Assembly (NCBI GenBank): GCA_903876445.1 | Contig: CAIQZX010000214.1 | Coordinates: 1-34,882 of the forward strand | Source of the DNA: an uncultured Pseudomonadota bacterium | GTDB taxonomy: Bacteria > Pseudomonadota > Gammaproteobacteria > Methylococcales > Methylomonadaceae | DNA: 34,882 nucleotides | Reading direction: 5' to 3' | Notes under the pieces: model-generated | What the model was told of the DNA's origin: nothing | Databases searched by the model: none | Seen by the model: the letters and a program-made list of their open reading frames with translations, nothing else | Shown: positions 15,204-33,815 of the stretch, one piece after another | Numbering within the stretch: position 1 is the stretch's first letter | How the letters are laid out: every line of letters starts with the position of its first letter | Position numbers and translations under genes: made by a program

Positions 15204-16385
15204 TTAAATCGCTTTTTTAATTCGTTCCAGCGCGGATTTGAGATTGTCCATGCTGGTCGCAATAGAAATACGAATATGTCCTGCCGTTCCGAATGCCGAA
15301 CCCGGAACAAGTGCCACACCGGCTTTTTCAATTAAATAATCTGAAAATGCCAAATCGTCATCAATGCCATCTAAACGTTCAAGTAATTTTTCGATATTTG
15401 GGAAAACGTAAAACGTGCCATCTGTTTCAACGCATTCCACGCCATCAATCGTATTTAATTCCGCCACAACAAAATCGTGACGTTTTTTGAATTCCACACA
15501 CATTTCAGCAATAAAACTTTGATTGCCTGTTAATGCCGCCACTGCCGCATATTGTGAAATCGAAGTCGGATTTGATGTGCTTTGTGATTGAATCGTACAC
15601 ATCGCTTCAATCAATTTTTCATTTCCTGCCGCGTAACCAATTCGCCAGCCTGTCATTGAATACGCTTTTGATACGCCATTCATTACAATCGTGCGGTCGT
15701 AAAATTCAGGATGCGCGTTCAAAATGTTCACAAACGTACCTTGTTGCCAAAGAATATGCTCGTACATATCATCGGTGGCGATAATGATGTTTGGGAAATC
15801 CGCTAACACATCGCCTAACGCTTTCAATTCATCTAATGAATACGCCGCACCTGAAGGATTCGATGGGCTATTGATAAAAATCAAACGGGTTTTTTCAGTA
15901 ATTGCCGCGCGTAATTGTTCAGGTGAAATTTTGAAATTTTGCGCTTGTGTGGTTTCGATAATGACAGGAACGCCATCGGCAAGTAAAACCATATCCGGAT
16001 ATGAAACCCAATACGGCGCTGGAATAATGACTTCATCGCCAGCGTTTAAAAGAGCTTGCGTTAAATTAAATGAACTCTGTTTGCCGCCACATGAAACCAA
16101 AATTTGTTTTGGGTTATATTCCAAACCATTATTTTTTTTGAATTTATCGATAATGGCTTTTTTCAATGGTGCAATGCCATCAACAGCCGTATATTTTGTA
16201 AAACCTTTGTTAATCGCCTCAATCGCGGCTTGTTTAATAAAATCAGGCGTGTCGAAATCGGGTTCGCCTGCGCCTAAACCAATAATGTCATGACCTGCGG
16301 CTCGCATTTGTGCGGCTCTTGCGGTAATTGCTAAGGTCGGTGAAGGTTTTACAGCATTGACGCGATTAGAAAGTTGGATGTTCAT
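15204..16385 (-). CDS. Pyridoxal-phosphate aminotransferase, aspartate type (class I)
   Basis: The 393-aa protein has the fold-type I aminotransferase motifs: GAGEPDFDTP (38-47), the SPSNPSGA loop (173-180), ATDDMYEHI, and the PLP lysine K240 in VSKAYSMTGWRIGY. Near the end, PGSAFGTAGHIRIS carries the substrate-carboxylate arginine. This is the AAT I-beta subgroup, which makes aspartate or, in some members, also transaminates prephenate or alanine. The ORF extends to 16463, but that N-terminal extension is a translated heptad repeat. MNIQLSNRVNAVKPSPT at 16385 is the family start, though it lacks a clear Shine-Dalgarno. Confidence 0.92.
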   Translation of the reverse strand: MNIQLSNRVNAVKPSPTLAITARAAQMRAAGHDIIGLGAGEPDFDTPDFIKQAAIEAINKGFTKYTAVDGIAPLKKAIIDKFKKNNGLEYNPKQILVSCGGKQSSFNLTQALLNAGDEVIIPAPYWVSYPDMVLLADGVPVIIETTQAQNFKISPEQLRAAITEKTRLIFINSPSNPSGAAYSLDELKALGDVLADFPNIIIATDDMYEHILWQQGTFVNILNAHPEFYDRTIVMNGVSKAYSMTGWRIGYAAGNEKLIEAMCTIQSQSTSNPTSISQYAAVAALTGNQSFIAEMCVEFKKRHDFVVAELNTIDGVECVETDGTFYVFPNIEKLLERLDGIDDDLAFSDYLIEKAGVALVPGSAFGTAGHIRISIATSMDNLKSALERIKKAI

Positions 16386-16394
16386 TTTATAAAG

Positions 16395-16465
16395 TAAGGT
16401 GAAAGGTGAAAGGTGAGAGGTGAAAGACACGAGACTAAAGGTTTTTTGCCTTGCACCTTTCACCT
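16395..16465. repeat. Heptad tandem repeat with inverted counterpart
   Basis: From 16395 four 7-nt units run TAAGGTG, AAAGGTG, AAAGGTG, AGAGGTG, with a decayed fifth. CACCTTTCACCT (16454-16465) is the exact reverse complement of AGGTGAAAGGTG, found at 16397-16408 and 16404-16415. GACTA (16433-16437) also pairs with TAGTC (16465-16469). The element fills the 86-nt gap between htpX and the aminotransferase gene and can fold several ways. Confidence 0.75.
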
Positions 16466-16471
16466 AGTCTT

Positions 16472-17350
16472 TTAACGTAAATTTTGTAATGCCGCAATGC
16501 GTTCTTCAAGTGGTGGGTGCGTCATAAATAATCTTGATGCACCACCGCCGCTAATTCCAAAAGCGGCTAATTGACCAGGTAAAGCTTCGGGTTCATGAGC
16601 GCGTTGTAATGCTTGAAGTGCAGCAATCATTTTTTCACGACCTGCTAAATTCGCGCCACCTACATCAGCTCTGAATTCACGGTAACGCGAGAACCACATC
16701 GTCAACATAGAAGCTAAAATACCTAATGCAATTTGAGCCACCATTTGTGTGACATAATATGCCCAGCCATAACCTTCGTCTTCGTTTTTCAAAATCACTT
16801 TATCAACAAAATGTCCGATAATTGTGGCAAAGAAATACACAAAGGTATTCACAACACCTTGCATTAACGCCATCGTAATCATGTCACCGTTTGCAACATG
16901 GCTAATTTCATGACCTACAACGGCTTCAACTTCGTCAGCATTCATTGCGTGTAACAACCCCGTGCTAACTGCAACTAACGCATTGTCACGATTCGCACCT
17001 GTCGCAAACGCATTAGGTTCAGGCGATTCAAAAATGCCAACTTCTGGCATACCAATTCCGGCGTATTGTGCTTGACGCGCCACAATATCTAATAACCATT
17101 GTTCTGTTTGGTTTTGTGGTTGTTCGATAACGACAACGCCCATACTGCGTTTTGCCGACCATTTCGACATAAATAACGAAATAACTGAGCCAGCTGAACC
17201 AATAATGGCGGACATGACCAACAATTTTTTTAAATCTAAATCAACGCCGTTTGCCGCTAATGAACTGTGCAAACCTAATAGATTAAAAATAACGCCAATC
17301 ACAACCATTACGGCAAGGTTAGTGACTAAAAATAAAAAGATACGTTTCAT
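16472..17350 (-). CDS. htpX: Membrane zinc metalloprotease HtpX
   Basis: The 292-aa M48 protease has two N-terminal membrane helices (about 4-26 and 43-62), the zinc motif HEISH (147-151) with the third ligand in REFRAD (E225), further hydrophobic segments at about 163-183 and 200-220, and the C-terminal FMTHPPLEERIAAL signature. HtpX degrades misfolded inner-membrane proteins, acting alongside FtsH. The ATG at 17350 (MKRIFLFLVTNLAV) aligns with E. coli. The TTG at 17368 would add six residues and lies before the GAGG. It may be cotranscribed with the aminotransferase gene, as no clear terminator separates them. Confidence 0.95.
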   Translation of the reverse strand: MKRIFLFLVTNLAVMVVIGVIFNLLGLHSSLAANGVDLDLKKLLVMSAIIGSAGSVISLFMSKWSAKRSMGVVVIEQPQNQTEQWLLDIVARQAQYAGIGMPEVGIFESPEPNAFATGANRDNALVAVSTGLLHAMNADEVEAVVGHEISHVANGDMITMALMQGVVNTFVYFFATIIGHFVDKVILKNEDEGYGWAYYVTQMVAQIALGILASMLTMWFSRYREFRADVGGANLAGREKMIAALQALQRAHEPEALPGQLAAFGISGGGASRLFMTHPPLEERIAALQNLR

Positions 17351-17422
17351 AATAAAAAGTTTCCTCAATTAAATGATTAAAGCGATACGATAACTTAACG
17401 CTTCTATAATAAAAAGCAAGCC

Positions 17423-32270: not shown

Positions 32271-33815
<1,545 letters not shown>

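Follow-up and report, generated by a model that had tools for sequence, protein, structure and literature searches.

Convergent heptad repeats at the site of a terminator-like hairpin between htpX and an aminotransferase gene in a Methylomonadaceae bacterium

The stretch of DNA analysed here (34,882 nt, hereafter the window) carries on its minus strand the gene of the membrane protease HtpX (16472–17368; two plasmid homologues are annotated htpX) and, downstream of it, the gene of a PLP-dependent aminotransferase (15204–16385, starting at a conserved ATG at 16385; several plasmid homologues are annotated pyridoxal phosphate-dependent aminotransferase). A plasmid search with both genes yielded ordinary homologues only. 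The interval between them holds a tandem array of 7-nt units together with an inverted partner of that array. On the plus strand, the array spans positions 16396–16426 and consists of three AAGGTGA units, one GAGGTGA unit and a terminal AAG, corresponding to TCACCTT units on the strand of htpX and the aminotransferase gene, and it lies 10 nt before the aminotransferase start codon. Written in the phase AGGTGAA, AGGTGAA, AGGTGAG, AGGTGAA, the array may run on in degenerate form as AGACACG, AGACTAA, AGG (16425–16441, plus strand). The partner comprises the inverted 12-mer CACCTTTCACCT at 16454–16465 and extends to 17 nt (CCTTGCACCTTTCACCT, 16449–16465) with 94% complementarity to 16397–16413, and it also pairs with the array in shifted registers. 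On the minus strand this arm is AGGTGAAAGGTGCAAGG, and the htpX stop codon (16472–16474) stands 6 nt before it. Rfam gave no match at the gathering score at the repeat site; near the end of the window, at 33769–33796, it matched a CRISPR direct repeat (RF01317, CRISPR-DR4, 47.6 bits).

Tandem Repeats Finder returned the array with a period of 7, 4.4 copies and 91% matches. Across the window, the top 24-position stretch at period 7 reached 22 matches, compared to a maximum of 19 in 100 dinucleotide shuffles, and periods 4–6 and 8–12 reached at most 17 in the real window. The four consecutive 7-nt units reported in a preliminary description of this DNA were thus rightly placed. The inverted 12-mer given there was also recovered, but the two pairing registers assigned to it proved to be four usable ones. 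The same description had the open reading frame of the aminotransferase running through the repeat, which is the case (GTG at 16463, frame open) and yet is uninformative because TCACCTT contains no stop codon in any frame; three AAGGTGA units, for their part, contain TGA in all three. Among 16 junctions, that of this genome included, the frame upstream of the conserved ATG was open for 2–65 codons with no pattern, and at 10 of the 16 it held no start codon whatsoever. Given the stop-free unit and the lack of conservation of the upstream open stretch, extension of the reading frame was rejected as a coding signal.

Since htpX and the aminotransferase gene both lie on the minus strand, the RNA of that strand is the relevant one. 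Its predicted fold has an energy of −25.2 kcal/mol, compared to a mean of −12.25 (standard deviation 2.8) for 200 shuffles (z −4.63). The heptad-armed hairpin (16396–16465, minus strand) can adopt four alternative registers of −23.3, −22.2, −21.9 and −18.3 kcal/mol, each computed on the segment cut at that register, with the stem ending 11, 18, 25 or 32 nt before the aminotransferase ATG. The locus therefore has the stable stem-loop downstream of a stop codon that is expected of an intrinsic terminator. A consensus terminator scan, on the other hand, found nothing at the repeat site, and the U score of the tail, calculated with a script of our own after a published form, was 0.65–1.78 for the four registers (1.65 in the register nearest the gene) as opposed to 2.12–3.41 in ten hairpin-bearing relatives. 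The UCACCU repeats of this RNA may be likened to an anti-Shine-Dalgarno sequence, a reading that presumes complementarity to the 3′ end of 16S rRNA.

An aminotransferase search of 61 genomes made the htpX/aminotransferase junction readable in 15 relatives from the same genus (in one of them, L020, the contig ends just inside htpX; G001 and G007 yielded none that was complete). Twelve of the 15 carry a compact AGGTGCAAAG-loop-CTTTGCACCT hairpin, or a variant thereof, followed by a T-rich tail, and three (G005, G010 and G011) another palindromic element; a heptad array was found at the junction in none of the 15. The stem of the relatives has 93% of its cells paired, compared to 32–58% when slid, and 12 cells changed on both sides among ten distinct hairpins, G002 and G004 being left out of the count because their junctions duplicate those of G015 and G012, respectively. 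Covariation exceeded all 500 shuffles in three of five measures, as scored on the same sequences from which the structure was drawn; the numbers of both-side-changed pairs and of pair types did not exceed those of the shuffles. The resident arm of this genome, the AGGTGCAAGG part of 16449–16465, coincides in the alignment with the 5′ arm of the relatives, and folding and comparison together place the heptad-armed hairpin at the site of their short terminator-like one. The hairpin here is a longer, multi-register stem with a poorer T tail than the form seen in the relatives.

In the three loci with the other element (L021, L022 and L023, from G011, G010 and G005, respectively), the terminator-like hairpin is replaced by another palindrome (GTGGGCGCGACAAATTCGCGC...). 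A 21-mer of this element, allowing up to 3 mismatches, matched 5 times each in G010 and G011 and was present in 12 of 18 genomes of the genus (reversed control, 2 of 18). With relatives of the replacing element this widespread in the genus, the junction seems prone to palindrome turnover.

The array is alone in its genome. Both the two-unit 14-mer and a three-unit pattern allowing 2 mismatches matched at this site only, and a 96-nt DNA query of the same genome returned nothing convincing elsewhere (next best E value, 0.126), so that the genome-wide count of AAGGTGA arrays called for by the preliminary description comes to one. The three-unit pattern with at most 1 mismatch was found in none of the genus's 17 other genomes, although two of these are only 72% complete. 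Four units of the looser form AAGGNNN occur in 4 of these 17 (G008, G009, G010 and G011) and have no match in the present genome, its fourth unit being GAGGTGA. AAAGGNN arrays, found in 9 of 18 genus genomes including this one (reversed control, 5 of 18), were discarded as kindred elements, the nine places inspected in relatives lacking the look of a heptad hairpin.

Within the family the repeat type is widespread. The three-unit AAGGTGA pattern (at most 1 mismatch) was found in 28 of 201 genomes, compared to 1 of 201 for the reversed control, and four AAGGNNN units in 80 of 201, compared to 16 of 201. Six genomes of one genus, g11, hold 41–519 overlapping three-unit AAGGTGA matches each, and the unit is scattered through four further genera (g13, g15, g32 and g33). 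A scan of named genomes gave at least 80 loci; among the matches listed, exact ones include Methylotuvimicrobium buryatense and a Methylomicrobium MAG, for which reason the family is probably Methylomonadaceae, and many others come from Bacteroidota MAGs, the unit being scattered outside the family. Long arrays run to 42.6 AAGGTGA units in a family genome (L070) and to 20.6 in Candidatus Limimorpha caballi (L142). At four loci (L069, L070, L072 and L144), AAGGTGA arrays precede a similar core, TCGGCGC(C)TTGACAAG..., and inverted CACC-type units; this element may be a heptad palindrome that is mobile. The reversed controls also matched in G070 (genus g3), G027, G077, G099, G116 and G130, with 9 matches in G070 for the AAGGTGA pattern and 268 in G077 for the AAGGNNN pattern, indicating that these genomes hold other heptad-spaced repeats. 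The AAGGTGA unit itself has no special status: two control heptads that share its composition occur in 17 and 44 stretches of viral contigs as opposed to 7 for AAGGTGA, and in a phylum sample AAGGTGA was found in 2 of 398 genomes, this one included, and the reversed control in 1 of 398. The extended string GTGAAAGANACGAGNNNAAAGG, considered as a shared element, was found in a single viral stretch.

The orientation of inverted partners was scored in 104 AAGGTGA arrays (7 viral, 21 from the family and 76 named ones, the last among the matches listed), the set that remained once arrays flanked on either side by fewer than 130 nt were left out (105 kept) and one array with a repeated flank was removed. 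Among the matches listed, a reverse-complement partner (at least 11 of 14 positions) was present on the 3′ side of 21 of the 104 arrays (8 family, 13 named and no viral ones) and on the 5′ side of one, the shuffle expectations being 1.0 and 0.7. Reversed and complemented units also scored on the 3′ side (13 and 11 of 104 among the matches listed), so that part of the 14-nt signal is one of purine/pyrimidine composition; at the stricter threshold of 12 of 14, the two controls fell to 4 and 3 versus 12 for the true partner, again among the matches listed. An exact inverted partner of 11–12 nt within 250 nt is a feature of 4 of 115 arrays among the matches listed, the present one included. The 34 AAGGNNN arrays of the family, a sample of one or few loci per genome (30 loci from the 80 matching genomes) in which some arrays are orthologous (L326, L327 and L328) and hence not all independent, show the same polarity, 18 of them having the convergent motif CCTTNNNCCTT 3′ of the array and none having it 5′; shuffled sequences gave 0.2, and period-6 and period-8 versions 3 each. 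Beside AAGGTGA arrays, CCTTNNNCCTT was found in 6 of 21 family cases versus 2 of 85 named and viral ones among the matches listed. Where close four-unit arrays lie on both strands, the order was plus then minus at all six loci. Period-7 repetition likewise marked the downstream flank in 32 of 104 arrays and the upstream flank in 10 of 104, other periods giving 0–5 (among the matches listed). The locus studied here belongs to the convergent AAGGNNN-type heptad palindromes common in the family, the partnered members of which have the purine arm 5′ and the pyrimidine arm 3′. An intrinsic terminator offers just such a purine arm 5′ and pyrimidine arm 3′, and this order would be expected if the structures derived from A-rich/T-rich terminators.

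Three broader generalizations from these arrays were abandoned. A T-rich stretch (at least 5 of 8) follows the convergent partner in 5 of 18, 1 of 2 and 1 of 6 cases in three sets; most convergent palindromes, accordingly, need not be terminators, and a general terminator function of partnered arrays was rejected. A cross-phylum rule by which arrays follow a stop codon in sense was suggested by 60 of 80 arrays versus 151 of 290 background gaps (p 0.0002, among the matches listed); it is not claimed, since the proportion becomes 60 of 96 (p 0.08) when 16 antisense-ORF arrays are counted on the other side. These gene contexts rest on crude longest-ORF calls, and of 113 arrays, 17 at locus edges and 16 inside an ORF were left out. 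Arrays were depleted between divergent genes (6 of 80 versus 60 of 290, p 0.005, among the matches listed); the present one belongs to the ‘--’ context (14 of 80), being close to where the next gene starts and not directly behind a stop. Lastly, a constant AAGG followed by a variable NNN, taken as the sign of a 7-nt reader, turned out to be search bias, the AAGG being quickly lost outside the searched match.

Orthologous sites in relatives, verified by alignment and represented by one genome per species so that variation is between species, reveal how the arrays turn over. Unit numbers at orthologous places were 3.6, 3.6 and 4.6 in one set (L055, L058 and L062), 3.4 versus 5.9 in another (L064 and L065), and at least 17.4 (L077, where the array runs to the end of the locus) versus 3.6 (L078) in a third. 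At the L062 site, both anchors were found in 19 of 20 genus-g15 loci; three of them (L300–L302) have AAGGTGA arrays, which are exchanged for four AAGGTAA units in L304 and twelve in L312, for AAGGTAA/AAGGTTC mixtures in L305 and L306 and for AAGGTTA/AAGGTTG in L317, others having no clear array. The arrays of L300–L302 lie between co-directional genes and have no convergent partner by eye, from which it follows that hairpins are not the origin of all arrays. A different genus of the family supplies the L060 site, where six orthologous loci between genes (L280–L285) form by eye a stem ending in a run of 6–7 T, L060 and L061 among the six having also been folded. Their 5′ arms consist of five AAGGTGA units, of three AAGGTGA units and then a long AAGGTGC run, of short AAGGCTA/AAGGTGA forms, or of AAGGGCA runs, which are longer by 14 nt (two units) in L284 than in L285; the 3′ arm of L061 has one 7-nt unit more than that of L060. 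The other 14 of the 20 loci were uninformative (7 with other sequence and 7 lacking the anchor). The L060 site provides the clearest support for arms that may grow in 7-nt steps inside a terminator.

Of the two properties proposed in the preliminary description, a mobile or an expandable repeat, the latter is borne out for the family, where orthologous arrays differ in unit number and sequence, and the former finds no support here, the array being the sole copy in its genome and sitting on a hairpin site found in 12 of 15 genus relatives. A repeat both unique and of fixed length had been named there as speaking against the proposal; this array is unique, but length is not fixed among orthologous arrays in relatives.

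Taken together, the feature is, somewhat more probably than otherwise, a heptad expansion specific to this lineage, within a hairpin that resembles an intrinsic terminator and separates htpX from the aminotransferase gene. As the heptad palindrome sits on the hairpin site of the relatives, it is best read as a terminator the arms of which have grown in 7-nt steps. The starting state, to judge from the comparison, would have been the AGGTGCAAAG-loop-CTTTGCACCT hairpin or a variant with its T-rich tract. Both arms would then have been extended in 7-nt steps with nearly the same unit (AGGTGAA and TTCACCT); the simplest route would be replication slippage starting from a seed that the arm already contained. 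Arms that share a unit are computed to stay complementary and to pair in several registers, and the predicted outcome is a longer stem, with its base 11, 18, 25 or 32 nt before the start codon according to register, followed by a poorer U tract. The effect might be a leakier stop or, alternatively, a hairpin acting on translation of the aminotransferase. That the repeat influences the downstream transcript, as the preliminary description proposed, is plausible given its terminator-like site, 10 nt ahead of where the aminotransferase gene starts.

It is quite possible that the array is a neutral microsatellite, produced by plain slippage and tolerated in an intergenic spot with no effect on either gene. 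This reading concerns effect, and is compatible with the slippage origin of the explanation preferred above. It accords with the frequency of other heptad arrays (17 and 44 viral stretches of the control heptads versus 7), with the erratic presence of arrays between species and the turnover of unit identity at one site, and with the account of the Xanthomonas heptads by Rehm et al. (2015, PMC4692102), who could identify no gene-regulatory role for them. Slippage alone, however, leaves unexplained why the complementary array lies 3′ and almost never 5′, and why the repeat is placed on a covarying hairpin.

Import of the element is unlikely; on this view, a relative rich in heptads would have supplied a convergent AAGGTGA palindrome, which either entered the terminator by recombination or took its place. 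A source would be at hand in that AAGGTGA is abundant in g11 and scattered in g13, g15, g32 and g33 but missing from all 17 other genus genomes; the junction accepts other palindromes, one of which is carried by three relatives, and L069, L070, L072 and L144 share an element, apparently interspersed, that has AAGGTGA arms and a core much alike in the four. Yet this genome holds no copy elsewhere, as would be looked for in a mobile (REP- or MITE-like) element, no core common to the array and the g11 element is visible by eye, the stem arm of the resident hairpin is kept at its aligned position, and no flanking target-site duplication was seen by eye. Translational control of the aminotransferase, whether by UCACCU repeats that resemble an anti-Shine-Dalgarno sequence or by hairpins that switch register ahead of the start codon, is very improbable: the repeats lie close to the ATG, the hairpin ends 11–32 nt before it and the TAACTGA heptads of Beggiatoaceae are described just upstream of start codons (PMC4679880), but no Shine-Dalgarno motif is visible by eye in this genome or its genus relatives, none of the 15 relatives with the junction has the array, and its orientation is opposite to that of a ribosome-binding site.

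Returning to expansion within a terminator, one may ask how far it reaches beyond this locus. That convergent AAGGNNN palindromes are in general self-renewing intrinsic terminators, their arms growing and shrinking in 7-nt steps as a length-tunable read-through valve, is doubtful. An A/G-rich 5′ arm and a C/T-rich 3′ arm would serve as seeds, to be matched anew by slippage or by arm-to-arm template copying. If true, this would explain the preference of bacterial repeats for period 7, their location at gene ends and their mutual orientation. The series from plain to heptad-armed hairpin, along with the six T-tailed stems at the L060 site, would in any case offer a concrete birthplace for heptads, one that fits their polarity. 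At the present locus, the consequence would be modest, in that the stop separating htpX from the aminotransferase gene may be altered.

An excess of period-7 repeats is not new. Mrazek et al. in 2007 reportedly took a census of heptameric long simple sequence repeats and found period 7 over-represented in many bacterial genomes; the period-7 excess is common to that census and the present case, and the passages that cite it contain no terminator-arm mechanism. Our literature searches combining heptads or simple repeats with terminators turned up no paper in which heptads originate in terminators. To ordinary intrinsic (rho-independent) terminators the feature is alike in its hairpin after htpX and in the U-rich tail of the relatives, and unlike in the longer stem, larger loop, competing registers and weaker U tract found here. 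Satellites derived from heptamers are mentioned in bacteria in a passage of another study (PMC6749651). The TAACTGA direct repeats occur in Beggiatoaceae, Cyanobacteria and Bacteroidetes, intergenically and sporadically across phyla (MacGregor 2015, PMC4679880), in agreement with the mention of cyanobacteria and Beggiatoaceae in the preliminary description; they are mostly forward and just before start codons, with only one inverted case listed. The present array resembles them as a sporadic, intergenic heptanucleotide tandem and differs in its unit and in its inverted partner, TAACTGA being a direct repeat.

A better parallel, and the closest known case, is provided by the convergent GGGAATC or (GGGANTN)n heptads of Xanthomonas, as described by Rehm et al. 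(PMC4692102). These are intergenic, lying near stop codons when on the sense strand and upstream of ORFs when on the antisense strand; they most commonly number four units, form 70 and 75 convergent array pairs, and vary largely in length between close species, and the authors quote a polymerase-slippage idea for the bacterial excess of heptamers. Common to both systems are a 7-nt unit with a fixed G-rich part and variable positions, an intergenic setting and convergent arrays; the present locus has tandem 7-nt units (at least two) and a nearby inverted array (two units, 16449–16465). As opposed to the Xanthomonas heptads, its AAGG-type units hold GG only and no G-triplets, so that a G-quadruplex is not expected, and the array is a single copy where dispersed copies would be typical. 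It is thus an isolated representative, within its genome, of a repeat type already known, and what sets it apart from the Xanthomonas case as described is its unusual context, a site at which sister species conserve a covarying terminator-like hairpin.
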